Shown here piece by piece: positions 25,108-58,109 of a DNA stretch of 64,000 nucleotides. The stretch spans positions 620,001 through 684,000 of the forward strand of contig NZ_MEHJ01000002.1 of NCBI RefSeq assembly GCF_001746415.1, given 5' to 3'. The notes below the pieces were generated by a model. The model searched no databases. It saw only the letters and a list, made by a program, of their open reading frames with translations, and had not been told where the DNA came from. This DNA comes from Streptomyces agglomeratus (GTDB taxonomy: Bacteria; Actinomycetota; Actinomycetes; Streptomycetales; Streptomycetaceae). Within the stretch, counting starts at the first letter, position 1; every line of letters starts with the position of its first letter. A program made the position numbers and the translations under genes.

Positions 25108-26481
25108 TCAGGCCACGATAGTGGGTGCGAGGGTGACGTGGTGGCCGAGGGCCTGGAGCTGGCGGACGAGGTCGCGGGTCTTGCGGGCGGGATTGAGATG
25201 GCGCTGGTGCCAGTCGGTGCCGAGTTCCTGGTATCGGGCGTCGGGGTCGTTGATCAGGTGCCAGGTGATGACGAGGATGGAGCGGGCGACGGCGACGAGG
25301 GCTTTGGCGTGGCCGCGGCGTTTGACGATTCTGCGGTAGCGAGCGCCGAGGAAGGTGTCGGTGCGGGCAGCGGCGTTGGCGGCTTCGCCGAGGGCGCCCT
25401 TGAGCCATGGGTTGCCCTTGCCCGCCGGGCCGGCGGTGTTCTTCGCTCCGGACTGAATCGTGCGGGGGCACAGCTTCGCCCACGAGACGAGGTGTTCGGG
25501 GGTGGGGAAGCGGCTCATGTCCAGGCCGATCTCGGCGAGGACGATCTGGGCGGTGGCGGGACCGATGCCGGGGACCGCATCGAGACGCTCGGCCAGTTCC
25601 TGCGCGGTCACACCGTCGCGGACAGACGGCCCGCCGGTGTCGTCCCCGTCCGACGGCCCGCCGGTGTCGTATGGAGCCGTGGTCTGTTTCATGAGGTCGG
25701 CGATCAGCCGGTCGAGTTCCTGGACCTGCGTGGTGAGGTGGTCGACGGTGCCCAGCAGCACGCCCAGCAGGCGGCCGTGATGTTCTTCGAACTGCCCGGT
25801 GAGTGCCTCGGCCAGGGCCGGCTTCTTCTTCACCAGGCTCCCTCTGGCGAGATCCGCCAAAGCTCGGGGGTTGCGTTCACCGGCGGCCAGGGCATCGAGC
25901 ATGGCCCTGCCGGACAGACCGAAGAGGTCGGAGACAACGTCGGACAGCTTGATCTGCGCGTCCTGCAGGGCCTTGTCCACCCGGTGCTTGTGCCGGGTGC
26001 GTTCCTGGATGAACACTGTGCGGGTGCGGGTGAGGTCTCGTAGCTGCCGGACTGGCTTGGGCGGTACGAACGAAGCGCGGACCATGCCGCGTTCGGCGAG
26101 CTTGGCCAGCCAGACCGCGTCGAGCTTGTCGGTCTTCGGCCGGCCGGGGACGTTCTTCACATCACGTGCGTTGACCAGCCAGCATTCCAGGCCGCGGGCC
26201 TCCAGGAGGTAGAAGAAGGGCCGCCAGTAGCTGCCCGTCGCCTCCATCACCACCCGCTGGACCCCCTGGCAGACCAGCCGGTCGCCGAGTTCGAGGATCG
26301 CGTTCGTGGTGGACGCGACCGTCCAGACCTGCTGGACGCGCCGGCCTTCGATGGTGTCGTGCGGGATGCGCAGGCACACCATCCCGGTTGCCTTGGCGAT
26401 GTCGATCGCCGCGACCCGGGCAACACTTCCGTCGTCGTGGTCGTCTTTGGACTCCTCCATCGTCTTCCTCCCCTTGGGCAT
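25108..26481 (-). CDS. IS110-family recombinase (DEDD transposase), first copy
   Basis: 457 residues, full length. The RuvC-like N-terminal DEDD domain shows ARVAAIDIAKATGMVCLRIP, VMEATGSYWRPFFYLLEARG (Glu) and PGRPKTDKLDAVWLAKLAER (two Asp). The C-terminal Tnp_20 region has LDAVPGIGPATAQIVLAEIG and the Ser-nucleophile area PRTIQSGAKNTAGPAGKGNP. IS110 enzymes insert without inverted repeats, guided by a bridge RNA. A repeated GGPSDGDDTGGPSV stretch in the middle is unusual. Start could also be the second Met. Confidence 0.9.
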   Translation of the reverse strand: MPKGRKTMEESKDDHDDGSVARVAAIDIAKATGMVCLRIPHDTIEGRRVQQVWTVASTTNAILELGDRLVCQGVQRVVMEATGSYWRPFFYLLEARGLECWLVNARDVKNVPGRPKTDKLDAVWLAKLAERGMVRASFVPPKPVRQLRDLTRTRTVFIQERTRHKHRVDKALQDAQIKLSDVVSDLFGLSGRAMLDALAAGERNPRALADLARGSLVKKKPALAEALTGQFEEHHGRLLGVLLGTVDHLTTQVQELDRLIADLMKQTTAPYDTGGPSDGDDTGGPSVRDGVTAQELAERLDAVPGIGPATAQIVLAEIGLDMSRFPTPEHLVSWAKLCPRTIQSGAKNTAGPAGKGNPWLKGALGEAANAAARTDTFLGARYRRIVKRRGHAKALVAVARSILVITWHLINDPDARYQELGTDWHQRHLNPARKTRDLVRQLQALGHHVTLAPTIVA

Positions 26482-26699: not shown

Positions 26700-27914
26700 T
26701 CAAGCAGCAGTGAGCCACTGGCGGTAGGCATCGGCGAAGGCGTCGTCGCGGCGGAGGCCGCGTTCGATGTTGGAGATGACGGCGGGCCACACGCCGAAGT
26801 GGTTGGCGGCGGCGGTGAGAGTGATGTTCTTCGTCTGCCGGGCCGGACGGAGGTCCGCGATCTCGGGGACTTGGACCTGGGTGGTCAAGAGCCGGAAAAC
26901 CTCGCGGGCTATCGCGCGTTTGAGCAGCCGGATGATCTCCTTCTTCGTGCGTCCGGCGCCGGTCTGTCGGGCGACGAACTCGCGGGTGCGCCGGCATCGG
27001 GCCATCCTCACGAGCGCGATGCGGTAGAGAGCGGCGTTGGCCGCCCGGTCGCCGCCCCGGGAGAGCCGGTGCCGGTTCGTCTTCCCGCTCGACGCGGGGA
27101 CGGGCGCCGCGCCGCACAGGGCAGCGAAGGAAGCCTCCGTGCGAAGGCGGGCCGGGTTCGCGCCAGCGGTGATCAGCAGCTGGGTGGCGGTGTCCGGGCC
27201 CACCCCGTAGGCGGCGCGCAGGCCGGGGTTGAGGATGGTGACCTGTTGGTCGAGCTCCCCGGTCAGGGTCGTGTGTTCCTCGGTCAGGTTCTGGACACGC
27301 TTGGCCAGCGTGCGCAGGGCTGTCAGGAGCGGGGCGTGCGCGGGGTCGCTGGCCGGCCGGAGCCGGGCGAGGGTGGTGACGCGCTTGTCACCGGACAGGG
27401 CGGTGTACTTGGCGCGGATAGCGTCGGGGGCGGTGATCAGGAGGTGCGTGATCTGGTTGAGCGTCGCGGTGCGAGCCTTGATCGCCGAGCGGGCGGCGGT
27501 CTGCAGGGCGCGTATCCCGACGATGGCCCCGTCCTTGGGAGCGCTGGTCGCGCGTCCGGAGACGACGGCGCGGGCCGCGGCGTAGGCGTCGATCGGGTCG
27601 GACTTGCCGATCCTGCGGCGTTCGGCCTTGTCGGGCCGGTTGACCTCGACGACGGCCAGGCCGGCCTGCCGGGCGGCGTGTGTGAAGCCGGAGCCGTAGG
27701 AGGACGTGCCCTCCACGCCGACGGCAGCGACGGTGCCGTGGGCCTGCAGGAAGGCGATCGCGGCGGCGTATCCGGCAGCATTGGTGGGGAATTGGGCGTC
27801 GGTGAGGTGCCCGCCCCGGTCGGTCACCACGGCGACGTGGATGGTGTCGGCGTGCGAGTCCACCCCGCCGACCACGACTTGGTCCCTCGTGTCCGCCGCC
27901 TCTGTGCCTGTCAT
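26700..27914 (-). CDS. IS110-family recombinase (IS116-like), second copy
   Basis: 404 residues, intact. DEDD residues lie in VVGGVDSHADTIHVAVVTDR, VGVEGTSSYGSGFTHAARQA and IGKSDPIDAYAAARAVVSG. The C-terminal domain contains LRAAYGVGPDTATQLLITAG, FAALCGAAPVPASSGKTNRH (Ser region) and GGDRAANAALYRIALVRMAR. Only distantly similar to the first copy, so this is an independent element rather than a duplication. It and the 155 bases upstream (27915-28068, non-coding, containing CTCCTAT at 27991) form one unit in which a bridge RNA could be encoded. Confidence 0.9.
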   Translation of the reverse strand: MTGTEAADTRDQVVVGGVDSHADTIHVAVVTDRGGHLTDAQFPTNAAGYAAAIAFLQAHGTVAAVGVEGTSSYGSGFTHAARQAGLAVVEVNRPDKAERRRIGKSDPIDAYAAARAVVSGRATSAPKDGAIVGIRALQTAARSAIKARTATLNQITHLLITAPDAIRAKYTALSGDKRVTTLARLRPASDPAHAPLLTALRTLAKRVQNLTEEHTTLTGELDQQVTILNPGLRAAYGVGPDTATQLLITAGANPARLRTEASFAALCGAAPVPASSGKTNRHRLSRGGDRAANAALYRIALVRMARCRRTREFVARQTGAGRTKKEIIRLLKRAIAREVFRLLTTQVQVPEIADLRPARQTKNITLTAAANHFGVWPAVISNIERGLRRDDAFADAYRQWLTAA

Positions 27915-28068: not shown

Positions 28069-28196
28069 GCCCAGCAGGACGTCAGTCAGTGATTGGGTCA
28101 CCACCACCGGGGACCCGTGTACCACTATGACTGCCCAGCAGGACGTCAGTCAGTGATTGGGTCACCACCACCGGGGACCCGTGTACCACTATGACT
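28069..28196 (+). repeat. perfect 64-bp tandem duplication at the insertion junction
   Basis: Two identical 64-bp units, 28069-28132 and 28133-28196, each starting GCCCAGCAGGACGTCAGTCA and ending GTGTACCACTATGACT. The second ends exactly where the IS256 transposase reading frame resumes. The unit has no coding sense and is not found elsewhere in the window. Confidence 0.9.
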
Positions 28197-28715
28197 GTCG
28201 GTGATGGTGGAGATGGTCTGTTTGGACACCTCCGCTCCGTAGACCTCGGCGAGATGAGCGGAGATCTCCCCGTGAGTGAGACCCTTCGCGGACAAGGAGA
28301 GCACCATCTCGTCGACGCCGGTCAGACGCCGCTGCCGCTTCTTGACGATCCGCGGCTCGAAGCTGCCGGCGGTATCGCACGGCACCCTCACCTCCACCGG
28401 GCCGACATCGGTCAGCACGGTCTTCGCCCGGGTCCCGTTGCGGCTGTTGCCGTTGTTCTTCCCGGCCGGATCGTGCTTCTCGTAGCCGACGTGGTCAGTG
28501 ATCTCGCCCTCCAGGGCGGACTCCAGCACCCGCTTGGTCAGCTGCTGCAACAGCCCGCCCTCCCCGGTCAGTTGCAAACCCTCGTTGCGGGCACGGTCAA
28601 CCAGCATCGCAACGAGCTGCTCGTCCGACACCGCACTCGTCGGTGCCTGAACCACCTGCTCGGCCTGCTCGTTCTCCACGGCGGTCTCCGTCATCAAACG
28701 CATCTCCTTGATCAT
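28197..28715 (-). pseudogene. IS256-family transposase, 5' third
   Basis: Starts at the ATG at 28715 or 28694. Reads SDEQLVAMLVDRARNEGLQL, QQLTKRVLESALEGEITDHV and GYEKHDPAGKNNGNSRNGTR, then VDEMVLSLSAKGLTHGEISA and VSKQTISTITD, where the IS110 insertion interrupts it. The next codon of the intact gene is at 25015. Confidence 0.85.
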
Positions 28716-29626: not shown

Positions 29627-29917
29627 TTAAGAGGATGCGGCCCGCCGCGGGCCAGGAGAGCGCACCACAGGAAGGTCATCGCGGTTCTCATCCTCGGCGA
29701 GCGCATCGGTCGGCATCCGGCGATAGCGGTGCAGAAGAGAGGCCAGCACCTCAGGATTGGTCTCCGCAGCGGCCACCAGAGCCGCCAACAGCTCCGCTCG
29801 AGAAGTGCGTTCGCCCGCTGCGGCTGCGGCGCGGACGAGGATGTTCAGCCTGCGGTCGATGTCCTCGGGCCAGAGCACCGAGGTCTGATGGCGCTGCTGA
29901 TGGCACAGCAACTCCAT
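29627..29917 (-). CDS. ribbon-helix-helix-like small regulator
   Basis: 96 residues. The core LWPEDIDRRLNILVRAAAAA followed by GERTSRAELLAALVAAAE matches a short beta strand plus two helices of the CopG/Arc fold, with TSRAELLAALV as the second helix. The C-terminal 40 residues are basic and Pro-rich. It is divergent from the kinase-like gene with 48 bases between starts, a layout typical for a regulator of its neighbour. It could also be an antitoxin without its toxin. Confidence 0.6.
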   Translation of the reverse strand: MELLCHQQRHQTSVLWPEDIDRRLNILVRAAAAAGERTSRAELLAALVAAAETNPEVLASLLHRYRRMPTDALAEDENRDDLPVVRSPGPRRAASS

Positions 29918-29929
29918 TGCTCCCCCTCA

Positions 29930-29959
29930 GTGACAGCTGACATGTAACGAATATATATT
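29930..29959 (+). promoter_or_regulatory. promoter giving a probably leaderless transcript
   Basis: GTGACA and TATATT are 18 bases apart. The -10 box ends six bases before the ATG at 29966, so transcription would begin at or next to the start codon. The ATATATATT stretch is strikingly AT-rich for this DNA, and no ribosome-binding site precedes the ATG. Confidence 0.5.
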
Positions 29960-29965
29960 GCGTGC

Positions 29966-30982
29966 ATGGTGACGCTGCTGCAAGACCGTCAGGCTTCCGC
30001 GCGTGATGACGTGGCACCCAAAACGGTGCGGGTGGCCGGCCGGACGTTGCAGCCGACACCCGTGTTCGACACCTACTGGTGTTTCGCCGCGGCCCGGCAG
30101 GCGGTGTACGAGGCCCGACTGGAGGGGCGGCCCCAGCCGTGGACCGATGATCCGATCCTGGCCGGGCACCGGTTCACCAACTGCTACCGCGCTGCCGACC
30201 GGGTCAGCCAGGCAGTGATCGGCGACGTGATCTACCAAGGGCCGCAGGAGTGGGAGGACGTCTTCTTCCGCACCCTCCTGTTCAAAATCTTCAACAAGGA
30301 GTCCACCTGGCAGCGGCTGACCCGGGCGGTGGGTGAGGTGCGCTGGGACACGTACGACTACCAGGCGTACGACCGGGTGCTGTCAGCCGCGTTTGCGAAG
30401 GGGGAGCGCCTCTACTCGGCCGCCTACATCGTGCCCCCGCCGCAGCTGGGGGAGGAGCGCAAGCACCGCAACCACTTGCGGCTGCTGGAGCTGATGATGA
30501 CCACCGGCGCGCCCGAGCGGGTCATGGAAGCCGCGACGATGCGTGAGGCCTATGAGGTGCTCCTCAGCTACCCGGCGCTCGGCCCCTTCCTCGCATACCA
30601 GTTCGCCATCGACCTCAACTACGCGCCGCACCTCGGCTTTTCGGAGATGGACTTTGTCGTGCCCGGACCCGGTGCTCGCGACGGCATCCGCAAGTGTTTC
30701 GGTCCCGCGGCCGACGGGATCGAAGCCGACGTCATCCGCTACATGGCTGACTCCCAGAACGACCACTTCGCCCGCCTCCAGCTGCCCTTCGCCGGGCTGA
30801 AGGGCCGGTCATTGCAGCTGATCGACTGCCAGAACTTGTTCTGCGAGGTCGACAAGTACGCGCGGGTGGCACATCCCGAAATCGCGGGCATCAGCGGCCG
30901 CAGCCGCATCAAGCAGGCATACCGGCACGATGCGGCGCCTCTGCAGGCTTGGTTCCCGCCCAAATGGGGCCTGAACGCCTAG
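29966..30982 (+). CDS. 5-hydroxymethyl-dU DNA kinase / alpha-glutamyl-thymine pyrophosphorylase-like protein
   Basis: 338 residues. Family-typical blocks are FDTYWCFAAARQAVYEARLE, PWTDDPILAGHRFTNCYRAA with DRVSQAVIGDVIY, the motif FFRTLLFKIFNKESTWQRL, the helical part LGPFLAYQFAIDLNYAPHLG with DFVVPGPGARDGIRKCF, and LQLIDCQNLFCEVDKYARV near the end. This is the helix-hairpin-helix glycosylase-derived fold used by phage enzymes that phosphorylate 5-hydroxymethyl-uracil in DNA or replace its diphosphate. Chromosomal bacterial members have no established function. It is convergent with the thymidylate-synthase-like gene. The fold is well supported; the substrate is inferred. Confidence 0.75.
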   Translation: MVTLLQDRQASARDDVAPKTVRVAGRTLQPTPVFDTYWCFAAARQAVYEARLEGRPQPWTDDPILAGHRFTNCYRAADRVSQAVIGDVIYQGPQEWEDVFFRTLLFKIFNKESTWQRLTRAVGEVRWDTYDYQAYDRVLSAAFAKGERLYSAAYIVPPPQLGEERKHRNHLRLLELMMTTGAPERVMEAATMREAYEVLLSYPALGPFLAYQFAIDLNYAPHLGFSEMDFVVPGPGARDGIRKCFGPAADGIEADVIRYMADSQNDHFARLQLPFAGLKGRSLQLIDCQNLFCEVDKYARVAHPEIAGISGRSRIKQAYRHDAAPLQAWFPPKWGLNA

Positions 30983-31009
30983 AATCACGAGATCCGCTGC
31001 CCCCTGATG

Positions 31010-31044
31010 CCTGCGGCGGTTGCCCCGAGCGGGCGGGCCGCAGG
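31010..31044 (+). terminator. possible shared terminator between convergent genes
   Basis: CCTGCGGC and GCCGCAGG, 19 bases apart, lie in the 82-base gap between the stops at 30982 and 31065. The stem is short, so support is modest. Confidence 0.35.
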
Positions 31045-31064
31045 ATGTCGGGAACGCGCGCGGG

Positions 31065-31907
31065 TCATGCCCCCAGCCTGAACAACGGGGTGGTCAGGGC
31101 ATGCTGGAGCGTACCGAGCTCGGACTTAGTGCAGTCCAGGCGGGCGCATCCGGACATGACGGTCAGGGTGCCCGGTGTGAGGCCGGCGTGGCGGGCGACC
31201 CAGGCGCACAGGTGGCCCAAGGCCAGGTAGTTGCCGTAGGCGCGGTCGAACATGTAGTGGCTGCGGTAGTAGGCGGCCAGGTGCACGGTGTTGGTGGAGC
31301 CGTCGAGCTGGAAGGAGCAGTGGCTCAGGCAAGGGAAGTCCAGGGTCTGGGTATCCAGGGCGGCGGCCCTGATCACGGCCTCGGTCCCTGCCGCGGTTTC
31401 CTGCGGCTCCTCCTCCCATGTTTCGCTGTCGTCCGTGACATGGGCGGTGCCGGCTTCGTAGACGGCGCTCCATTTCGCAGAGGAGCGCAGCTTGTCCAGG
31501 CGGTGGATGACGCGGGCGAGCTGGTCGACCGGTTCAGGTTTCTCGGGGGTGCCTGGGTAGGCGACGAGCCGTCCGAAGTAGGTGCCATGAGCGTTGCGCC
31601 TGACCTCACGCAGACGCGGGTACAGGGTCCGGTAGCGGTCGGTGAGCTCCTCGTGGGTTGAGCAGGTGGCAGCGAGCTTGGCGGGGAACAGCGTGTTGAC
31701 CACCGTCTCGATGGGGTAGAGCGGCTCTTTGCTGCGGGCGGCGCGCAGCCGGTCGAGTTCGGCGCGCAGGTGCAGGTCTTCCTGCAGCGGACTTGCGATG
31801 CGCACCACAGTGTGGAATGCCTTCCTGCCCGGAATCTCCGAGAGGTGGGTGGCGGCCTCCAGCCAAGCGCGGGAGACGTCCGGGGCGTCGACGGTGAACG
31901 TGTGCAT
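31065..31907 (-). CDS. thymidylate-synthase-like pyrimidine hydroxymethylase candidate
   Basis: 280 residues, near the length of ThyA. YPIETVVNTLFPAKLAAT and NAHGTYFGRLVAYPG resemble the folate-side regions of this superfamily. LDFPCLSHCSFQLDG (Cys193 or Cys197) corresponds to the catalytic Cys strand. AAYYRSHYMFDRAYGNYLAL keeps the phosphate-binding Arg215-Ser216 and an Asn at +11 (Asn226). In ThyA the equivalent Asn reads the uracil ring; hydroxymethylases acting on cytosine carry Asp. The expected reaction is transfer of a one-carbon unit from methylene-tetrahydrofolate to C5 of dUMP or a related pyrimidine. Ordinary ThyA is less likely given divergence and context. Last gene of a four-gene operon. 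Confidence 0.65.
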   Translation of the reverse strand: MHTFTVDAPDVSRAWLEAATHLSEIPGRKAFHTVVRIASPLQEDLHLRAELDRLRAARSKEPLYPIETVVNTLFPAKLAATCSTHEELTDRYRTLYPRLREVRRNAHGTYFGRLVAYPGTPEKPEPVDQLARVIHRLDKLRSSAKWSAVYEAGTAHVTDDSETWEEEPQETAAGTEAVIRAAALDTQTLDFPCLSHCSFQLDGSTNTVHLAAYYRSHYMFDRAYGNYLALGHLCAWVARHAGLTPGTLTVMSGCARLDCTKSELGTLQHALTTPLFRLGA

Positions 31908-31961
31908 CGGCTCGCTCCTTGATCGGCGGATGGTGTGCGCCGTGCGGTGGTGGCGGGGACG

Positions 31962-32879
31962 TCAGGCCCAGAAGTGGTCGGATCCTTCGCGGCTGGGCGC
32001 GGGGCGCAGGGTGACGCGGAACAGCTCCGAGGTGCCGGTGTCGGCGGTCACGGTGGCGTCCGCGTCCAGTTCCTCGCCCACCCACACGGCCCGGGTGTGC
32101 TCCGCTGTGGCGGAATCGAGGAACGACATCTGGCCGGCTGTGTCCGGCGGAGTGCTGCTCACGCCTGCCGGCAGCTGGTCGTAGCGGCCCCCGGGTACCG
32201 CCAGCAGCAGGCAGTCACCGGAGGTGACGTGCAGGACGGCATCGTGGGCGGCGGGCATCAGCACGTGAACATGTGCCTGAGGTCCGAGCGGCAGACTGCC
32301 GGCCAGTTCCGTTTTGAGGCTGCCGGGGGAGTGCTTCAGCCACACCGTCTCCATCGACCGGTCGATCATCTTCAACCGCACGAGGTGTCGCACGGTGGTG
32401 GCGTACGGGGTGCCCAGCCAGCGTGCCATCCGGTAGGCGTCCAGCGGGGATCCGGGGCGCTGGAGACCGCAGCAGGCCAGGGCGGTGCGTGCGGCGGGGC
32501 GGGGTATCAGGAACCAGGAGGCGAAGGCCTCCGCCTCCCGCTCGTGCTGGGGCCACCCCTCGCCCCACCGACCGGACGACTGGTCCTGATGGTCGATGCT
32601 GGTGCCGTGGCCCATGCGGTGGTGGCCCAGCTCGTGAGCGGCAGTGTGCCGCATGCCCACTTCCTCCAGGCCGGTGTTGACCAGGCAGCCCGGCACGCCC
32701 CCCTGGCTGCTGTCCACGTACAGACCCAGCAGGCCGCCCAGCTTCTGCCCCATGACCTCCACTCCGGCGCGGTGCAGTGCACCGAACACGTCAACGTAGT
32801 CGTCGACCCCGGCGAGGAGATCCTCGTGAGCCTGCGCGGCCGCGATCATCGCGGCCCCGTGGGCACTGTTCCAACTCAC
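31962..32879 (-). CDS. ImmA/IrrE-family metallo-endopeptidase
   Basis: 305 residues. The GTG start overlaps the XRE stop by four bases (GTGA). Zinc-binding HELGHH is at RHTAAHELGHHRMGHG, with the third ligand expected in HEREAEAFASWFLIP. Residues 1-75 are the usual N-terminal helices (HRAGVEVMGQKLGGLLGLYV). The C-terminal 120 residues (LLLAVPGGRYDQL, VWVGEELDADATVTADTGTS) form an extra strand-rich domain. ImmA-type enzymes cleave XRE repressors in response to a signal, and here the XRE gene is directly upstream. The likely job is derepression of this cassette. Confidence 0.85.
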   Translation of the reverse strand: MSWNSAHGAAMIAAAQAHEDLLAGVDDYVDVFGALHRAGVEVMGQKLGGLLGLYVDSSQGGVPGCLVNTGLEEVGMRHTAAHELGHHRMGHGTSIDHQDQSSGRWGEGWPQHEREAEAFASWFLIPRPAARTALACCGLQRPGSPLDAYRMARWLGTPYATTVRHLVRLKMIDRSMETVWLKHSPGSLKTELAGSLPLGPQAHVHVLMPAAHDAVLHVTSGDCLLLAVPGGRYDQLPAGVSSTPPDTAGQMSFLDSATAEHTRAVWVGEELDADATVTADTGTSELFRVTLRPAPSREGSDHFWA

Positions 32880-33298
32880 GCACCGCCCTCCGGCCTCTGA
32901 GGCGGGCGCAGCCCACCCGCTCCCTCCTCCTCCGCCTGGCGGCGGGCGTGCAAGTACTGGATGAACTTCGCCACCTCGATGCGGTCGCCTTCACTCAACG
33001 GCCTTGCGGTACGCGGCAGTCCGGCCAGCGCGTGCTCCCCGGCGTCGGCCGCCTCCTCCTCGTCGAGAAAGTACGACGCCGGCAACCGGTACAGGCGGGC
33101 GAGCTTCTGCAGCTCCATCACCTCCACCTTGCGTACGCCGCGCTCGATGTCACTGACGGCTGACCGCACGATCCCCGTCCGTTCGGCTACCTGCTGCTGC
33201 GAGAGCCCCAGGTACTCGCGGGTGGCCTTCAGCCGCTGGCCCAGGTGGGCTCGCTGCTCGGTGTCGGTGCCGGCCTGGGGTGGCACGTTGCCGTTCAT
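32876..33298 (-). CDS. XRE-family transcriptional repressor
   Basis: 140 residues from the ATG at 33298, which overlaps the carrier-protein stop (ATGA). Residues of about 19-75 are a Cro/C1 helix-turn-helix: LGQRLKATREYLGLSQQQVA, then ERTGIVRSAVSDIERGVRKV and LARLYRLPASYFLDEEE. The tail (LSEGDRIEVAKFIQYLHARR) is helical and could be the target of the metallopeptidase encoded next. The palindrome at 33639-33655 between the operon and the MazG gene is its most likely operator. Confidence 0.85.
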   Translation of the reverse strand: MNGNVPPQAGTDTEQRAHLGQRLKATREYLGLSQQQVAERTGIVRSAVSDIERGVRKVEVMELQKLARLYRLPASYFLDEEEAADAGEHALAGLPRTARPLSEGDRIEVAKFIQYLHARRQAEEEGAGGLRPPQRPEGGA

Positions 33299-33573
33299 TG
33301 CTGTTGCTCCTTCGCCTGCAAACTGTCGTGCACGGTCTCGGCGAACGCCCACACCGAACGCAGAGAGCGTCCGGCCTCGGCGTCCGCCGGAATGCGAACC
33401 TTGAAGTACTGCTCGATGCGCGCCAGGATCTCCATGACCAGCACCGAGTCGACCGGCAAGTCCTGCCCCCGGGCAGCCAGTTCCTCGTACAGCTCCTGAC
33501 TCGGCCGGCCCTGGTGCTCGGCCAGGAAATCGATCACGATGTCCACGATCTCCTGAACGCTCTGCGACGGCAT
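33295..33573 (-). CDS. acyl-carrier-protein-like protein
   Basis: 92 residues. The four-helix carrier fold is suggested by VQEIVDIVIDFLAEHQGR, the motif LPVDSVLVMEILARIEQYF with Ser43 as phosphopantetheine site (DSV instead of the usual DSL), then VRIPADAEAGRSLRSVWAFA. No ketosynthase, adenylating enzyme or acyltransferase is in the window. In this operon it might carry a group to be attached to a modified base or to a small molecule. First gene of the minus-strand operon. Confidence 0.7.
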   Translation of the reverse strand: MPSQSVQEIVDIVIDFLAEHQGRPSQELYEELAARGQDLPVDSVLVMEILARIEQYFKVRIPADAEAGRSLRSVWAFAETVHDSLQAKEQQQ

Positions 33574-33638
33574 ACTCCGCTTCCGCCCCTTCGCTCAACT
33601 CCCGGACAGACGGCCCGGCGTGACCTACTGTAGAGCGA

Positions 33639-33655
33639 TGTCGGGAAATCCGACA
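33639..33655. promoter_or_regulatory. palindromic operator candidate
   Basis: TGTCGG-GAAAT-CCGACA is a perfect 6-5-6 inverted repeat in the 102-base divergent region between the carrier-protein and MazG-like genes. A second palindrome, CAGATCTG, abuts it (33654-33661). Position and symmetry fit a dimeric XRE repressor controlling both directions. Confidence 0.55.
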
Positions 33656-33675
33656 GATCTGTTGGAAGATCATTC

Positions 33676-34566
33676 ATGGGAGCGTGTGTGCACCTCGCCC
33701 GCTATCAGCAAGCAGCGCTCAAAACCCTGCAGCCCACCACCGACGGCACCGACCCGGTCCTCATACCGCTCCTCGGCCTGGTCGGCGAGACCGGCTCCGT
33801 AGCCACCGCCTACAAAAAGCGCCTGCGCGATGGTGCCGACGCCAGCCCTTCCAAACAGCAACTGCGCGAGGAACTCGGCGACGTTCTGTGGTACACAGCC
33901 ACCCTGGCCCACCTCCTCGGCCTCGACCTAGAGGACATCGCCGCCGCCAGCCTGGAAAAGACCAAGGACCGCTGGCGCGCCACTCCCGACACCGAACGCC
34001 CCCGCTTCGACAGCGACTATCCGCCCCACGAACAACTGCCCCGCCGTACCACCGTCACCTTCACCCCCACCCTGCAGCCCGACGGCCGCACCGTCATCGT
34101 CCTCACCCGAGAAGACGGCACCCGCGCCGGCGACCCCCTCACCAGCGCAAGCCACATCGAGGACGACTACCGTTTCCACGACGCCTTCCACCTCGCCCAC
34201 GCCGCCGTCCTGGGCTGGTCACCCGTCAGCCGCTTCCTCCTCGACCGAAAACGCCGCAGCCGCCCCGGCATCGACGAAGCCGAAGACGGCGGCCGGGCCA
34301 TCGCCATCGAAGAAGGCATCAGCGCCCTCGTCTTCTCCTACGCCAGCCGCCACCACTACTTCGAAGACGACCGCCACGTCGACCACGAACTGCTCATCAC
34401 CATCGACCACATGACGGCCCACCTGGAAGTCAACGTGCTGCGCGCCGCTGACTGGGAGAAAGCGATCATGACCGGCTACACCGCCTGGCGGCAGCTGCGC
34501 AAGCACGGCGGCGGCCACCTCCAACTGGACCTGGACGCTCAGACGCTGACCTTCACCGAGCCCTGA
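33676..34566 (+). CDS. MazG-like nucleoside triphosphate pyrophosphohydrolase with extra C-terminal domain
   Basis: 296 residues. The N-terminal 105 residues are MazG-like: PLLGLVGETGSVATAYKKRL, LREELGDVLWYTATLAHLLG and DIAAASLEKTKDRW hold the acidic metal ligands (E-x3-E type and ExxD). These enzymes cut NTPs or dNTPs to monophosphate and pyrophosphate. Residues of about 120-296 form a second domain (TVTFTPTLQPDGRTVIVLTR, DDYRFHDAFHLAHAAVLGWS, AIAIEEGISALVFSYASRHH) rich in His and Glu, seen with MazG in some actinobacteria and of unknown role. It could supply dUMP or another monophosphate to the hydroxymethylase candidate. Confidence 0.8.
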   Translation: MGACVHLARYQQAALKTLQPTTDGTDPVLIPLLGLVGETGSVATAYKKRLRDGADASPSKQQLREELGDVLWYTATLAHLLGLDLEDIAAASLEKTKDRWRATPDTERPRFDSDYPPHEQLPRRTTVTFTPTLQPDGRTVIVLTREDGTRAGDPLTSASHIEDDYRFHDAFHLAHAAVLGWSPVSRFLLDRKRRSRPGIDEAEDGGRAIAIEEGISALVFSYASRHHYFEDDRHVDHELLITIDHMTAHLEVNVLRAADWEKAIMTGYTAWRQLRKHGGGHLQLDLDAQTLTFTEP

Positions 34567-35038: not shown

Positions 35039-38000
35039 ATGCAGGAAACCAGACGAGGCGCGCTCGGAGGGGCGAGTAGCGAGGCCGGTGCCAGTCACCG
35101 GGCCGGAATCGCCGCCCTAGTCGCCGTCTACGGTCTGCTGGGGGAGCCGGTTCCTTGGCTGCGGTCGCAAGCGGCTCCCGTTCTCCTGCGCATGGAGGCG
35201 GACCTCCATGTCGATGACGTCGTCGTCGATCTCGCGGACGGCACCAGAGCGTTCATGCAGGCCAAGCTGTCCACGGGTGACAAGGCATTCAAGGACACGG
35301 TGGACCAGTGGCGCCGGGCTGTCACCTCGGGGGAATGCCGGCCGGGCGACGAACTGCTCTTTGTTGTCACCAGGTCCACGCCGTCGTTGGACCGCATGGC
35401 CGAGGCTCTTGTGACCCACCAAAGTGGTGCATCGCTGACTGCGCCGGCCGCGAGGCAGCTCGATAGGCTGCGTCGCCTAACTCACGACCACGGTCTGGAC
35501 CAGGTGGCTACAGCACAGCTGCTGGCTGCGGCGAAAGTCTGTGCCCTGGACGCCCGTGACGACGGCCCGAACGAGGCGCTGGGCGCGGCCTGTATGAACG
35601 CGGCCGTCGTCCCCGTGGGCCACGGCCGGGCGGCCTTTCGTGCGATGAAGGCGGCAGCGCGTGTTCAGGCCGAACAGCGCACCGCTTCGGAGCTGCATGG
35701 CTGGCGAGGCTGGCTCACCGGCGCCCGCCTCCCCTTGACCGCTGACGCGGCAGGCACCCCTGCAGCACGGCTGGAGGCACTGGACCAGGCGCTTGCCAAC
35801 TACCGAGAGAAGTGGGCAGCCGAGCAGGACATCCTTCCTCTCGCCGACCTCGGCCTGGGCCTGACATCGATGACCGTGCCCGGCGCCACCGGTGACCTCA
35901 GAGCAACACCACCGCTCCAAGGGCCTGGCCGCGACAAGCTGGTCGACGCGGCACGCCGTCAAGGCCGTCTCTTCCTGGTCGGGCCTCCAGGGTCGGGCAA
36001 GACGGTGGCCTCGCGCCTCCTCGCAGCCCATTGGGCAGGACGCGACATCGCGCCGGTCCCGGTGTGGCTGCCTCTGCGGCAGCTGGTGCCCCTCCTGGCC
36101 CCTGTGGGCCCCTACAGGCTAGAACCAGCCGACCTCGTGCAGGCAGCCATCGGCACCACGCAGCCCCTCCTCGCAGAGGCACTGCTGACGCGCATCAACC
36201 GCGGTGAGGCACTCATCGTTCTCGATGCCCTCGACGAAGTCCACGAGCGGCAGGACGCCGTGGTGGAAGCCGTCGCCGGCCTGCTTGACCGACTGCCCTT
36301 CGAACTCGACGTCGTGGTCACCTCCCGTCACTCCTGTCTCCAAGCGGCTGCCCGCCTCCAGCTTCCCGTCTACGAACTGCACACTCCACACAGCCTGACC
36401 AGCTCACTCGACCAGCTTTTGGAGACCCTCGCCGAGCGATTCGTCGACGTCGCCGGCCACAATGACTGGATCGCGGACCGCCGTCGGCGCGTCGAACATT
36501 CCCGACGGGTCGAACGCGACCTGTGGCGTGTCCCGCTCTTGGCCACACTGATGGTGCTGCTCATCGCCGAGCGCCCCGTGGCCACTCTGCCCGGCAACCG
36601 GGCCCGCCTACTCACCGAAGTGATCGACAGCAGCGTCCGACAATGGGAGATGCGCCGCTCGAGGCTGACCATGCCGGACACGGACCCCCAGCTGACCGCC
36701 GACATTCTCATTGACTGCTTCGACGACATCGCACACCTCACAGCCACCGCCGCCACCGCCTCCTGGCACGACGCCCACCAAGCCGTCGGCGCCCGCCTTC
36801 AACGGCACTGGGGCAAACCTCCAGGCACAGCCGCGGCCATCGCACGCCATACGCTCGAATACTGGGACGCCACAGCCGGCGTGTTCATTACCGACACACC
36901 ACAAGGAACGCTCACCGCGCGCACGCGCCTTCTTGCCGAGATCGGCGAAGCGCGCTGGGCCATGCGAGACCCGCAGTCCATTCCCGCGTGGATGCACAGC
37001 ACGCTCACTGACCCGGAGCGCGCAGAAACCGCGCGGCTTGCCGCGAGCTTGTCCCCACAAGCCGCCGATACTCTCATAGAGCAGGCACTCAACGATGGCG
37101 GAACGCTGCTCGATCTGGTCCACGATGCCCTCGCCGACGGAACCGCGTTCGACAGCACTGCGCTGCACACCTACCGCCAAGCCCAGCTGACCCGCCTACC
37201 CGCCCTTCCTGACCGCAACCCGAAAACTCCTGGCGTTGCCATCGACCTTGACGAAGGCCGCTCCCCACGGGCGCAACTGGCTGCCAAGCTCGCGGAAGAA
37301 GACCTCGATGCGGCGCAAACCCAGCAGCTCATCCAGGCCGTCGGCAGTATGGGGCACGAGCAGCAAGCAGTGATCACCGCTCTGTGTACCCAGAGACAAG
37401 CCAGCAAGCGAGCCACCCCGCTCACTCCCCGCGAGCTCGACGTCCTCGAAGCTGGCCTCGCCGCAGCCGCGAGCACGGGCTCGAAGGACCGGGCAGAGAT
37501 CGCAGGTGTTGACCCACTCGTCCGCTTCGCGGTCGAGCATGGTCTCCTTAAGAGGCCGGACATGTTGCCCCACCTCGTAGGGGCTGCCCACCACGTCACC
37601 ATCGACACTTTCGAGTGGCTCGCGACCGCATTGCCTAAGCGCGGCCACCGCGGGGCCCTCGCCACCATTACCTCCGCCATCAAGACCGACAGCCTGACCG
37701 CATTTATCGACATGTACAAAGCGATGAGTGCCCCCCATGAGATCCTCGCCGAGCTCGACAGCACCCCCATCCAGCTCACCTCGACTCAGGCATGGCACCT
37801 CGACGAAGCCGCCACACTCGCCACAGCCATCACCACACGGAATCAGCCGGTCAGCCACATCGCCACAGCCGTCAAGCAGCACCCTGAGCTGACACGAGAA
37901 ATTCTCCGACTCCTCGTCCAAGCCAGCGGCCTGGATCGTGCCCTCATCAGCGCTCAATTCCGCAGTCTGCGAGGTGAAGCCTCCCGGCATCCGGACTGGG

Positions 38001-38611
38001 GACTCCTGCACCAGGCGAGCACCCGTACCCCAAACCTCAGGCTGCGCCCCGAGAGCATCGACACCGACCTGACCACCGAAGCCCTCACCAGCGGAAACCC
38101 CTGGCTCATCCGGCTCATTCTGAGGCTGGCCATCGAGACACGCTCCCTGCCCCAGGACTTCGCCGAACGCGTCCTGGAAATCCTCCCCGATATCGGACCC
38201 CCCGCCCGCATGAACACCGCAAGCCTTCTCGCCCTGCGCTGGCCCGATCTCGCCCTGCCCGAGGATGACGCCATAGTCAGAGCCGGTGCCGCAAGTGTCC
38301 GAGCTTCCCGTCTCAGCCAAGCCCAGCGGCACAACGACGCCCAACACATACTCACCGATCCGGACCTCCTTGTGCGCGCAGAGGTAGCCAAACGCCTGCG
38401 CGATGCCAACCCTGAGGAGCGGGCAATACTTGAGAAGGCACTGGCACGTCCCGCACGGCAGTGGACATGCATTCGCTGCGGGTCCGTCACCCCCAGCGAA
38501 GCCCAGCAGTGCGCTAAGGAACATCCGCGCCCCACCCCCAGCCTCACAGACCAGCGTGAGCCGGGGGATGGCACCGCGGTACGTCTGGGCCGGCATGAAG
38601 ACCGGCCATGA
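35039..38611 (+). CDS. NACHT/STAND NTPase with N-terminal nuclease-like domain
   Basis: 1190 residues; AGGAG six bases before the ATG. Residues 15-110 resemble the Cap4/DUF4297-type PD-(D/E)XK domain: ASHRAGIAALVAVYGLLGEP, then LHVDDVVVDLADGTRAFMQA with K76, i.e. D60 and QAK. The NTPase has Walker A GPPGSGKT (315-322), Walker B LIVLDALDE (392-400) and a sensor strand VVVTSRHSC. After about residue 560 come helical repeats for ligand recognition. The end has a CIRCGS...QQCAKEH zinc-ribbon-like motif. Such proteins recognise a phage component, oligomerise and degrade DNA. It stands alone; bases 34567-35038 upstream have no gene. Confidence 0.8.
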   Translation: MQETRRGALGGASSEAGASHRAGIAALVAVYGLLGEPVPWLRSQAAPVLLRMEADLHVDDVVVDLADGTRAFMQAKLSTGDKAFKDTVDQWRRAVTSGECRPGDELLFVVTRSTPSLDRMAEALVTHQSGASLTAPAARQLDRLRRLTHDHGLDQVATAQLLAAAKVCALDARDDGPNEALGAACMNAAVVPVGHGRAAFRAMKAAARVQAEQRTASELHGWRGWLTGARLPLTADAAGTPAARLEALDQALANYREKWAAEQDILPLADLGLGLTSMTVPGATGDLRATPPLQGPGRDKLVDAARRQGRLFLVGPPGSGKTVASRLLAAHWAGRDIAPVPVWLPLRQLVPLLAPVGPYRLEPADLVQAAIGTTQPLLAEALLTRINRGEALIVLDALDEVHERQDAVVEAVAGLLDRLPFELDVVVTSRHSCLQAAARLQLPVYELHTPHSLTSSLDQLLETLAERFVDVAGHNDWIADRRRRVEHSRRVERDLWRVPLLATLMVLLIAERPVATLPGNRARLLTEVIDSSVRQWEMRRSRLTMPDTDPQLTADILIDCFDDIAHLTATAATASWHDAHQAVGARLQRHWGKPPGTAAAIARHTLEYWDATAGVFITDTPQGTLTARTRLLAEIGEARWAMRDPQSIPAWMHSTLTDPERAETARLAASLSPQAADTLIEQALNDGGTLLDLVHDALADGTAFDSTALHTYRQAQLTRLPALPDRNPKTPGVAIDLDEGRSPRAQLAAKLAEEDLDAAQTQQLIQAVGSMGHEQQAVITALCTQRQASKRATPLTPRELDVLEAGLAAAASTGSKDRAEIAGVDPLVRFAVEHGLLKRPDMLPHLVGAAHHVTIDTFEWLATALPKRGHRGALATITSAIKTDSLTAFIDMYKAMSAPHEILAELDSTPIQLTSTQAWHLDEAATLATAITTRNQPVSHIATAVKQHPELTREILRLLVQASGLDRALISAQFRSLRGEASRHPDWGLLHQASTRTPNLRLRPESIDTDLTTEALTSGNPWLIRLILRLAIETRSLPQDFAERVLEILPDIGPPARMNTASLLALRWPDLALPEDDAIVRAGAASVRASRLSQAQRHNDAQHILTDPDLLVRAEVAKRLRDANPEERAILEKALARPARQWTCIRCGSVTPSEAQQCAKEHPRPTPSLTDQREPGDGTAVRLGRHEDRP

Positions 38612-39039: not shown

Positions 39040-40465
39040 TAGTACTTCGTTAGGTTGATTTGATCTCGGGCTGCCGGGTTGGGCATGCTGCTCTGATGGA
39101 GCTGGGGGAGATCGAGCAACTCCGGGGCGAGCTGGGCGAGTTCGTGGCTGAGGTGTTCGCGTCGGTGCCGCGGAGGGATCAGCGGGCGAAGGGTGACTGC
39201 TACCTGCGGGGGTTGATGCTGGACGGTCGCAGGAAGTCGATCCAGCCGATGGCCGAGCGGCTGCCGGACGGCGACATGCAGGCCTTGCAGCAGTTCGTGA
39301 ACCAGTCTCCGTGGGACCACGTGGCGGTGTTGCGGGCGGTAGCCGTCAAGACGGTTCCCGTCGTCGATCCGATGGTGTGGGTGATCGACGATGTGTCGTT
39401 CCCCAAGGACGGGAAGATGTCGGTGGGGGTGGCCCGGCAGTGGTGCGGGGCGTTGGGCAAGCAGTCGAACTGCCAGGTCGCGGTCAGCCTGCACGCCGCG
39501 TCCGACACCGCTTCCGTGCCGATCTCGTGGCGGCTGTTCCTGCCGGCCGAGTGGCAGGACGACACCGCGCGCCGGGCCAAGGCGGGGGTGCCCGAGGAGG
39601 TGGGGCACCGGGAGAAGTGGCGTCTGGCCCTGGACCTGATCGACGAGGCGATCGGCTGGGGCCTGGAACCCAAGGTGATCGTCGCGGATGCCGGGTACGG
39701 CCAGAACAACGCCTTCCGGCAGGCTCTGGCCGACCGTGGTCTGGACTTCGTCGTCGCCGTCCGGGCGGATGAATCCGCTCACCCGGCCGACGCTGTCCCC
39801 ACCGCCCCCGCCTGGAGCGGAACCGGACGCAAACCCGCTGTCCGCTACCGCACCAAGGCTTCCTCCCTGAAGGACCTGGCCACCGGGACCGGACGCAAGG
39901 CATACCGGCAGGCCACTTGGCGCACCGGTTCGCGCGGTGCGATCGCTCAAGATTCAAAGTCGAGACGGTGCGTCCGGCCGGCGTCGCGGCCCGCAGGCAC
40001 GCCATCGCCCGGGCTGGCGGCTCCACCGCCTGGGACGGTGTTCTGCCCACGGCGACACTGCTGAGCGAGTGGCCCACCGGCGAGAAAGCGCCCACCGAGT
40101 ACTGGCTGACCAGCCTGCCCGCCGACACCCCGCTGCGGCAACTGGCCCGACTCGCGAAGATGCGCTGGAGGATCGAGCACGACTACCGCGAGATGAAGCA
40201 CGGCCTGGGACTGGACCACTTCGAAGGCCGCACCTGGCGCGGCTGGCACCACCACGCCACCCTCGTCACCGCCGCCCACGCCTTCTGCACCCTCCGCCGC
40301 CTGGACCCAAAAGCAACAGCGCCGGCCTGACCTTCTACCAGGTCCTCCACACCATGCAGGACCTGTTGCTCTGCTGGACCGGCGCATGCCCCACCTGCCA
40401 TCGCCAGCTACCACCCCGAAGGCGAAGACAACAGACCCTCTCCAGCCCGACCTAACGAAGTACTA
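39040..40465 (+). mobile_element. IS701-family element
   Basis: 1426 bp bounded by perfect 16-bp inverted repeats TAGTACTTCGTTAGGT and flanked by CTAG on both sides (39036-39039, 40466-40469), the YTAR target type of this family. It inserted exactly at the left border of the neighbouring IS630 element, whose first bases complete the CTAG. Confidence 0.9.
39096..40450 (+). pseudogene. IS701-family transposase with two frameshifts
   Basis: Starts MELGEIEQLRGELGEFVAEV, continues WVIDDVSFPKDGKMSVGVAR (first Asp) and KVIVADAGYGQNNAFRQALA (second Asp). At about 39935 the frame changes to SRFKVETVRPAG, then LAKMRWRIEHDYREMKHGLG (Glu), and near 40330 a second change leads to GLTFYQVLHTMQDLLLCWTG. 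As read, the protein cannot be made. The ends are fresh, so sequencing error or very recent decay are both possible. Confidence 0.75.
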
Positions 40466-40468
40466 CTA

Positions 40469-41622
40469 GTGTCCTGCGCCAGTAGTTGATCGTTAGTTTG
40501 TCTATGACTGCTTCTGCAGATGTGCCGGTGCCACGTCGTGGCCCGAAGTTGGAACCGTTGTTATTGTCGCCCGATGAGCGTGTGGTGTTGGAGCGTTGGG
40601 CCCGGCGGGCGTCGTCCGCGCAGGCAGTGGCGTTGCGGGCCCGCATTGTGCTGGCGTGTGCCGGCGCTGATGTTCCACCGATTGTCGTGGTGGCGCGGGA
40701 GTTACGTATCGCGGCGGACACGGTCCGCAAGTGGCGCCGCCGGTTTCTGACCGCCCGGCTGGACGGGTTGGTGGACGAGCCCCGGCCGGGCCGGCCGCCC
40801 ACCATCAGCGTCGACCAGGTGGAGGCGGTCGTGGTCAGCACGTTGGAGGAGATCCCGAAGAACGCCACTCACTGGTCGCGGTCATCGATGGCCGACCGCA
40901 GCGGTCTGTCGAAGTCGACCGTGGGCCGGATCTGGCGGAAGTTCCAGCTCAAGCCGCATCTGACCGACACCTTCAAACTGTCGACGGATCCGCTGTTCGT
41001 GGAGAAGGTCTACGACGTGGTGGGGCTGTATTTCAACCCGCCCGAAGGCGCGGTGGTGCTGTCGGTGGACGAGAAGTCGCAGATCCAGGCGCTGGACCGC
41101 TCCCAGCCGGTACTACCGATGATGCCGGGCATGCCCGAGCGCCGCACCCATGACTACGTCCGCAACGGTCTGACCACCTTGTTCGCAGCCTTCGACGTCG
41201 CGACCGGAGAAGTCATCACCTCCCTGCACCGCAGGCACCGGGCAGCGGAGTTCAAGAAGTTCCTCGCCAAGATCGATAAAGAGGTTCCTGGGCACCTGCA
41301 GGTCCACTTGATCTGTGACAACTATGGCACCCACAAGACCCCAGCCATCAAAGCATGGCTGGCCAAACACCCACGTTTCCACCTGCACTTCACACCTACC
41401 GGCTCCTCCTGGATCAACCAGGTGGAGCGGTGGTTCGGCTTCCTCGCCGACCAGAAGATCCGCCGCGGCGCCCACAAGAGTGTGCGCTCCCTGGAAGCCG
41501 ACATCCGGGCCTGGGTCAAGCAGTGGAACGAGAACCCGACCCCGTTCACCTGGACCAAGACAGCCGAAGAAATCCTCGACTCACTCGCCCGCTTCTGCCA
41601 ACGGATCTCTGGCGCAGGACAC
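40469..41622 (+). mobile_element. IS630-family element
   Basis: 1154 bp with terminal repeats GTGTCCTGCGCCAG and its perfect complement, and TA at both borders, the universal IS630 target. Contains one intact transposase gene. Confidence 0.85.
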
Positions 41623-41625
41623 TAG
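40504..41625 (+). CDS. IS630-family transposase
   Basis: 373 residues from the ATG at 40504. N-terminal helix-turn-helix region LSPDERVVLERWARRASSAQ and VARELRIAADTVRKWRRRFL. Catalytic residues: VVLSVDEKSQIQALDRSQPV (Asp), HLICDNYGTHKTPAIKAWLA (Asp), TGSSWINQVERWFGFLADQK (Glu). The stop uses the TA target duplication plus the next G, so it depends on the insertion site. Intact and possibly active. Confidence 0.9.
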   Translation: MTASADVPVPRRGPKLEPLLLSPDERVVLERWARRASSAQAVALRARIVLACAGADVPPIVVVARELRIAADTVRKWRRRFLTARLDGLVDEPRPGRPPTISVDQVEAVVVSTLEEIPKNATHWSRSSMADRSGLSKSTVGRIWRKFQLKPHLTDTFKLSTDPLFVEKVYDVVGLYFNPPEGAVVLSVDEKSQIQALDRSQPVLPMMPGMPERRTHDYVRNGLTTLFAAFDVATGEVITSLHRRHRAAEFKKFLAKIDKEVPGHLQVHLICDNYGTHKTPAIKAWLAKHPRFHLHFTPTGSSWINQVERWFGFLADQKIRRGAHKSVRSLEADIRAWVKQWNENPTPFTWTKTAEEILDSLARFCQRISGAGH

Positions 41626-48077: not shown

Positions 48078-48442
48078 CCCTTTTCGTTTCCTCCATCAAA
48101 TCACTTCTGCGACTGAGGGTAAGGCGCGCGGGATGAGATTGATGGTTGTACAAGAAAACTAATCTCCCGAAAAGTCCGTAACCTGCATTTCTGGAGTGGC
48201 TGAACTGTTTGCCCAAACTGCATCATGTTTGTACGCATACAGCTTGGGCGTCTTGGGGCCTCTCCAGTCGTCGGGTGCGGATTTCCTGGGGTGTCAAAAC
48301 GGGCAACTTGCCTACTAAACGGCCACGCTGATGCACCGTCATAACAACTCAATAAAAACGTCAGTAGCCCGATCGAAGTGATCCATTTCGGTGTTACCTT
48401 TACCGTTACTTTTGTTAATCTGCATTTCCTGTGGGGGGAATA
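48078..48442. promoter_or_regulatory. AT-rich divergent promoter region
   Basis: 365 bases between the two large secreted-protein genes are much richer in A and T than the rest, especially 48330-48430, where GTTACCTTTACCGTTACTTT contains two TTAC-type direct repeats and is followed by TTGTTAAT. The Rhs GTG has GGGGGG six bases upstream. Both genes start here, so shared regulation is likely. Confidence 0.5.
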
Positions 48443-57918: not shown

Positions 57919-58109
57919 GAAAGCCTCCCTTCTGTCACTGCTCATCTTCCCTCCTGCCACTGACAATCACCCGGCGTGCCGAACGGCCACCGGGGCCCGA
58001 CAGGCTTGAGCAGAATCCTTTCCCCATCTGCCTCGATACCCCCATAAGCGACTCTGTTTATCTGGAAAACCGCCCGTAGCGCCCACCTGGGTGGTTACGG
58101 TCTGTGCCC

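Follow-up and report, generated by a model that had tools for sequence, protein, structure and literature searches.

A conserved seven-gene cassette of Streptomyces relatives joins an HMUDK_hel protein, a divergent ThyA-like enzyme and an acyl carrier protein

The cassette compared with phage thymidine hypermodification

Gene sets for thymidine hypermodification are described for phages M6, ViI and phiW-14 (PMC6449724). Such sets contain a protein of the HMUDK_hel family and an enzyme of the thymidylate synthase superfamily, and both are also present in a cassette of seven genes at 29627..34566 of a 64,000-nucleotide stretch of Streptomyces agglomeratus DNA (contig NZ_MEHJ01000002.1, positions 620,001 to 684,000; this whole stretch is the window). 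The gene order is a ribbon-helix-helix (RHH) regulator (minus strand), HMUDK_hel (plus), a ThyA-like enzyme, ImmA, XRE and an acyl carrier protein (ACP; all four minus) and a MazG-MazG_C protein (plus). However, the phage sets, as seen in phage NEU2024, have a P-loop 5-hydroxymethyldeoxyuridine (hmdU) kinase (PF18748), encoded by a separate gene adjoining HMUDK_hel, and a thymidylate synthase that retains the standard catalytic residues. The cassette has neither, and adds the ACP, MazG_C and the XRE/ImmA pair. HMUDK_hel and MazG_C reportedly stem from the line of work of Iyer 2013 and Burroughs 2015 in Nucleic Acids Research. Those two papers lie outside the searchable literature, in which the seven-gene arrangement was not found, and an earlier description is possible. 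The individual domains have precedents in phage hypermodification and in predicted nucleotide-based conflict systems; the arrangement is provisionally new.

The HMUDK_hel protein (338 aa; 29966..30982, plus strand) had been read as hmdU-kinase-like in an initial annotation of the window. A Pfam scan returned PF18723 (HMUDK_hel) alone (E 7e-115; 383.6 bits against a curated cut-off of 25), without PF18748, and none of the 38, 15 and 19 rows in three separate alignments has a P-loop (Walker A) motif. With the motif missing from all 38 homologues, the kinase identity was rejected, and the database name "nucleotide kinase domain-containing protein" is misleading and is called into question here. 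The family is helical and its alignment has invariant residues. The predicted fold appears glycosylase-like, of the helix-hairpin-helix (HhH) type, and is nearest to the phage glycinyltransferase PUGT and the queuine-salvage protein DUF2419. PUGT (the 5-phosphomethyl-dU glycinyltransferase of phage PaMx11, 8z2m) is only 10% identical with no sequence-level match, the predicted fold scores are modest for a helical protein, and a PDB sequence search gave nothing credible. Residue 229, placed after the hairpin near what we take to be the expected catalytic Asp of HhH glycosylases, varies: 37 of the 38 HMUDK_hel rows counted have T, D, E, S or N there. All three named relatives of the window protein are from Streptomyces. 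Separately, a TylF-like methyltransferase gene adjoins HMUDK_hel at locus L058 (10616-11578), and at locus L049 (8513-10621) a sequence resembling that methyltransferase and HMUDK_hel share one open frame of 702 aa.

The ThyA-like protein (280 aa; 31065..31907, minus strand) is a divergent member of its superfamily, matching Pfam Thymidylat_synt at E 0.0024 and NCBIfam TIGR03283 at 7e-11 (41.9 bits against a cut-off of 174.55), both under cut-off. The predicted fold is that of the ThyA superfamily, with the cytidine monophosphate (CMP) hydroxymethylase MilA among the nearest solved folds; the model is shallow (7 sequences, predicted local distance difference test score 74.5, residues 146-192 below 50). 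Cys193 and Asn226, which we take to correspond to C146 and N177 in E. coli numbering, are kept in 11 of 11 diverse rows by correspondence in the printed alignment. The Glu58-equivalent is Asn71 in the window protein, in a column with Asn in 7 of 11 rows and Glu in one, and the ribose-binding His-x-Tyr column reads R-L-D. According to PMC5175136, conservation of this Glu and of the ribose-binding His/Tyr is extreme across MilA, BcmA, the hydroxymethylases of phages and thymidylate synthase. MilA and the dCMP hydroxylase AfhB are 14-16% identical to the window protein, and the Glu and His/Tyr are not conserved in the comparison. Hydroxymethylation by the ThyA-like enzyme is not established because these residues are absent. 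The superfamily assignment and the Cys/Asn pair stood, and the proposed hydroxymethylase role is unproven; the loss of catalytic residues that the initial annotation had named as evidence against its scheme was found for the Glu and His/Tyr positions. With no P-loop in the supposed kinase and these residues missing, the proposed route, in which ThyA makes a hydroxymethyl pyrimidine and the kinase activates it, does not follow from these genes.

Four other labels were borne out by Pfam. ImmA (31962..32879, minus strand) matches Peptidase_M78 at 1e-7 and has an HExxH motif at residues 82-86 that is invariant in 27 of 27 aligned relatives. The XRE repressor (142 aa; 32876..33304, minus strand), whose start codon was picked by the lengths of orthologues, overlaps ImmA and matches HTH_31 at 1e-12. 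The ACP (92 aa; 33295..33573, minus strand) matches PP-binding at 3e-5; all 18 family rows keep Asp42 and the phosphopantetheine Ser43, and in diverse rows the site has Ser in 13 of 13 and Asp in 12 of 13. The MazG protein (296 aa; 33676..34566, plus strand) carries MazG (PF03819, 2e-8) and MazG_C (PF18722, 1e-73), and its nearest solved relatives by profile are dCTP pyrophosphatase 1 (E 3e-5). The regulator label at 29627..29917 (96 aa, minus strand) held in part: a strand-helix-helix pattern is conserved across 14 rows, and the Pfam scan gave no RHH family model at E<=1. A tblastn match at E<=1e-4 to this protein was found in 19 of the 23 loci described below, one of them a fragment (L018).

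Conservation and spread

The window proteins were compared with 23 HMUDK_hel loci from 22 genomes (L002-L004, L013-L018 and L037-L050). All seven genes, with order and strands kept, were found at 16 of these loci in 15 genomes, L014 and L015 being two copies in one genome. The seven open reading frames lie at the coordinates given in the initial annotation, and they form a conserved unit. Among 297 Streptomycetaceae genomes, HMUDK_hel was found in 17, MazG_C in 14 and a ThyA-like match of any strength in 27, 15 of them at E <1e-60; all 15 genomes with the strong ThyA-like match and all 14 with MazG_C fall within the 17 (Fisher p ~2e-23 and ~2e-21, respectively, in statistics that ignore relatedness). 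This strict co-occurrence led us to reject a chance grouping of the genes. A set of 396 Actinomycetota genomes gave HMUDK_hel in six and a strong ThyA-like match in four, all among those six. In comparisons with L002, L003 and L037, every one of the seven genes had a ratio of nonsynonymous to synonymous substitution (dN/dS) of 0.10-0.38 (RHH was compared with L002 and L037 only).

Relative to L004, the ACP-XRE-ImmA-ThyA block had a dN/dS of 0.49-0.65, compared with 0.09-0.30 in the case of RHH, HMUDK_hel and MazG. Identities to L004 are 83% for HMUDK_hel and 84% for RHH, compared with 37-58% for the block; in the case of L047 they are 66%, 48% and 55-67%. Because the block and the other genes are discordant at these two loci, the block seems to have been exchanged as a co-adapted unit, judging from the identities. 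The flanks mostly differ. Once the cassette genes and the frames antisense to them were set aside, the most widely shared protein cluster, which looks helicase-like by eye, covered 10 of 30 loci and the others 4-5. Several copies lie near sequence ends or are duplicated at both ends (G091, G439, G457). Taken from sequence comparison, the seven genes appear to be a conserved unit that moves between Streptomyces relatives.

The neighborhood is also found in other phyla, and the initial annotation's own ground for refutation, that no conserved neighborhood would exist, therefore fails. Among 72,556 plasmid records, HMUDK_hel has a match in 22 and the ThyA-like protein in 21; nine records match both, with the two matches no more than 4 kb apart in all nine. 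Inspection of seven of these nine (L061, L062, L063, L065, L066, L071 and L186) showed in every case a small gene, annotated as ACP or unnamed, followed by XRE, ImmA and ThyA-like genes. Among the non-Streptomyces plasmids, the product of this small gene was aligned for five (L061, L062, L063, L065, L071), and all five have the ACP Ser. L061, L062, L063, L066 and L186 also have a gene annotated as MazG-type next to HMUDK_hel or the block, with none in L065 and L071; a C1 peptidase follows ImmA in the latter two. Of six annotated plasmids from outside Streptomyces that carry both HMUDK_hel and the ThyA-like gene, five were typed as conjugative (L061, L062, L063, L071 and L186, not L065), and phosphopantetheinyl transferase genes are annotated in four of the six (L062, L065, L071, L186). 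Interrupted genes in L064 and L071 were kept uncorrected. Unnamed proteins that resemble each other also lie beside plasmid cassettes (L062 2640-3143, L065 5251-5826, L070 7775-8188, L071 6444-7025); the two scanned, those of L062 and L065, had no Pfam match.

Related arrangements differ in composition. A second protein of the thymidylate synthase family lies beside the cassettes of plasmid L062 and chromosomal L055, and a profile of these two with one phage protein matches MilA at E 3e-42. Genes resembling dCTP deaminase are present in L062, L070 and L071. The variant cassettes L069, L070 and L072 have an ACP-like gene, XRE, a ThyA-like gene and a neighbor annotated as uracil-DNA glycosylase (UDG), with no HMUDK_hel match; ImmA and a C1 peptidase are annotated in L070 and L072, MazG_C was found in L069 by Pfam and in L072 by eye, and Pfam found PF03167 in L070 and not in L072. 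HMUDK_hel occurs with MazG_C only in L056 and L073. A mainly viral home for the cassette was unsupported, a ThyA-like relative being encoded in 3 of 22 pattern stretches of viral contigs. Separately, L153, a 52.9-kb IMG/VR contig classed as viral, matches all seven genes.

The ACP-XRE-ImmA-ThyA core lies close to HMUDK_hel on cyanobacterial and rhizobial plasmids and on plasmid DNA of a haloarchaeon. This distribution speaks against a small pathway for a nucleoside natural product, equipped with regulators of its own, as does the finding of no further gene common to most loci, flank functions having been sampled only. The presence of an ACP, the solved MilA fold among the nearest to the ThyA-like prediction, and the TylF-like methyltransferase of L058 with the similar sequence in L049 would fit such a pathway, which we nevertheless consider very improbable.

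Control regions and immune neighbors

The layout of the seven genes gives two divergent control regions. Between RHH and HMUDK_hel, a consensus scan found a sigma-70-like promoter, GTGACA-18-TATATT (29930..29959, plus strand), that ends 6 nt before the HMUDK_hel ATG; one such site was found in the region compared with 0.4 expected, and from this spacing the HMUDK_hel mRNA is likely leaderless. A perfect, operator-like palindrome, AATATATATT (29950..29959), overlaps the -10 element of this promoter-like site 6 nt upstream of the start. Its sequence is unchanged in 16 of 17 aligned intergenic regions, that of the window among them (L002 differs), and it is the single such site in the 9.13-Mb genome. 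A second operator-like palindrome, TGTCGG-N5-CCGACA (33639..33655), lies between ACP and MazG and is a candidate XRE site. Its core, GTCGG-N5-CCGAC, is exact in 11 of 18 aligned regions and has 1-2 changes in the other seven; TGTCGGG-N4-CCGACA has one match in the genome. As 0.4 copies of the core are expected per window by chance, its weight comes from conservation. We assign, by inference, AATATATATT to RHH and the GTCGG-N5-CCGAC palindrome to XRE. The minus-strand ACP-XRE-ImmA-ThyA run, with overlaps or gaps of up to ~55 bases, looks like one operon.

ImmA and XRE match the PADLOC models for CapP-like (E 2e-10) and CapH-like (E 9e-9) proteins, a pair that presumably controls immune operons. 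Both the CapH/CapP pair and the cassette combine an XRE protein with an M78 peptidase; in the cassette, cleavage and trigger are putative. This two-layer control with an ImmA switch suits an inducible set better than constant marking of DNA. It therefore counts against protective hypermodification, in which plasmid or host DNA would be marked with a modified pyrimidine against restriction, as in phages. That explanation would account for the many cassettes on plasmids, for the PUGT-like predicted fold of HMUDK_hel and for the phage sets in which HMUDK_hel homologues stand with thymidylate synthase and a P-loop hmdU kinase or annotated glycosyltransferases. However, no nuclease gene is common to most loci, given the largest non-cassette cluster at 10 of 30, and neither a PF18748 kinase nor an A11-type or other canonical hydroxymethylase was found in this genome, by searches without a positive control. 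We regard protective marking as possible though unlikely.

Immune-type genes accompany several HMUDK_hel relatives. In the case of L183, a Gloeothece plasmid, one run holds a phospholipase of the type found in cyclic-oligonucleotide-based antiphage signaling systems (CBASS; PADLOC 1e-99), HMUDK_hel, MazG_C, a ThsB-type TIR protein (3e-54) and Nmad2. L185 (Parabacteroides) has a run of TIR, Nmad2 and HMUDK_hel, and in L057 (Actinomycetota) TIR and Nmad2 lie beside HMUDK_hel on the opposite strand. These sets share HMUDK_hel with the cassette, and MazG_C in L183 (by Pfam) and L057 (by tblastn, 3.4 kb away); they have effector-type genes, whereas the ACP/XRE/ImmA/ThyA block was not seen there. 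Matches to the Lamassu protein LmuB lie beside the cassettes of L062 (5e-168) and L186 (2e-39), and NACHT-type proteins lie near the cassette copies of the window, L037 and L046. Among the E. coli systems that the DefensePredictor study (PMC13092281) validated as protective against phage are ones with a 5-hydroxymethyluracil kinase domain and ones with thymidylate synthase; the study names MazG and MazG-C as predicted, untested defense domains. That kinase domain may be either PF18723 or PF18748. The text of a 2020 eLife paper on conflict systems (PMC7159879) has no mention of MazG, thymidylate or ImmA.

The runs with TIR and phospholipase effectors would also fit a sensor or signal module, in which HMUDK_hel, or the UDG-like enzyme of the variants, acts on unusual phage bases or nucleotides, with the product, or an intermediate bound to the ACP, serving as the signal. 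The replacement of HMUDK_hel by a UDG-annotated protein in the variants (PF03167 being confirmed in L070 only) agrees with this, as do the nearest predicted folds of HMUDK_hel, which include DNA glycosylases and the nucleotide-acting DUF2419. However, the seven-gene form is without any conserved effector, and residue 229, near the expected glycosylase Asp, is variable. A sensor or signal role is accordingly doubtful in our judgment.

A proposed inducible anti-phage module

At a probability of about 0.5, we read the cassette as a mobile, inducible anti-phage module that uses pyrimidine chemistry under the control of ImmA/XRE and RHH. This is supported by the identical order and strands at 16 of 23 loci, the strict co-occurrence, the recurrence on plasmids and the immune neighbors of relatives. 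There is an even chance that the module behaves like a regulated immune operon, and it fits no named PADLOC system.

Several observations weigh against this reading. The immune neighbors were chosen by eye, without a background rate, and the effectors belong to distant HMUDK_hel relatives, not to the seven-gene form. ImmA-type pairs reportedly also control integrative elements, so the pair alone is no sign of defense. PADLOC gave no match at E<=0.1 for HMUDK_hel, ThyA-like, ACP or MazG_C; five of the ten Streptomyces flank proteins scanned had no PADLOC match either, and three of the other five fit helicase-bearing models. Seven of the 23 loci are incomplete: L003, which begins inside HMUDK_hel at a contig end, and L038, which has no RHH match, have six genes, L018, L039, L042 and L050 are partial, and L049 has another context. 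The remaining 12 Streptomycetaceae genomes with a ThyA-like match have weak best matches (E 7e-6 to 8e-4), and among the 396 Actinomycetota genomes three weaker, part-length matches to the ThyA profile (E 2e-10 to 5e-9) fall in genomes other than those with HMUDK_hel. On plasmids, 13 of the 22 HMUDK_hel records are without the ThyA-like protein and 12 of the 21 ThyA-like records without HMUDK_hel. HMUDK_hel stands without other cassette genes in L060 and, by annotation, in L184, and its homologues are present in 493 of 50,697 phage records.

For the anti-phage module, infection or DNA damage would lead ImmA to cut XRE, which would release the ACP-XRE-ImmA-ThyA operon and MazG, with RHH gating HMUDK_hel separately. 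MazG-MazG_C may then trim pyrimidine triphosphates to monophosphates, and the divergent ThyA-like enzyme could add a C5 group to the pyrimidine, the phosphopantetheinylated ACP carrying the group or the product. HMUDK_hel, as a putative base-handling enzyme, would install or exchange the C5 group on nucleic acid or nucleotide. The product would either spoil phage replication or serve as a signal, and we make no choice between the two.

In a speculative and improbable version centered on the ACP, an exocyclic methylene formed by the ThyA-like enzyme would be attacked by the phosphopantetheine thiol of the ACP, or by a carried group, and HMUDK_hel would unload the ACP-tethered pyrimidine onto DNA or a nucleotide. 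This would account for the joint travel of the ACP, the ThyA-like enzyme and, at some of the loci, a phosphopantetheinyl transferase in the absence of a kinase and of a canonical hydroxymethylase; if true, it would be carrier-protein-mediated nucleobase modification. One regulated unit, found in Streptomyces, cyanobacteria, rhizobia and a haloarchaeon, thus combines a carrier protein with a stripped-down ThyA and a predicted glycosylase-like base enzyme. The single-copy operator and the invariant Cys, Ser, HExxH and HMUDK_hel residues offer testable handles on pyrimidine chemistry in bacterial immunity.

Transposase genes flank the cassette on both sides in the window, with IS110-type genes at 26700-27914 (by Pfam) and 25108-26481 (by eye) and a Mutator gene at 28146-28715 on one side, and DDE transposases at 39060-40064 and 40486-41625 on the other. 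Directly after the cassette lies a NACHT protein of the STAND class (1190 aa; 35039-38611) with a weak PDC-M54A match at its N-terminus. It was rejected as a cassette member because none of the 23 loci gave a match to it. Farther along, an AAA ATPase resembling OLD, GajA and AriA (55898-57724) adjoins an SbcD-like phosphoesterase (58104-59297), and an RHS-repeat protein of 2098 aa is encoded at 48431-54727.

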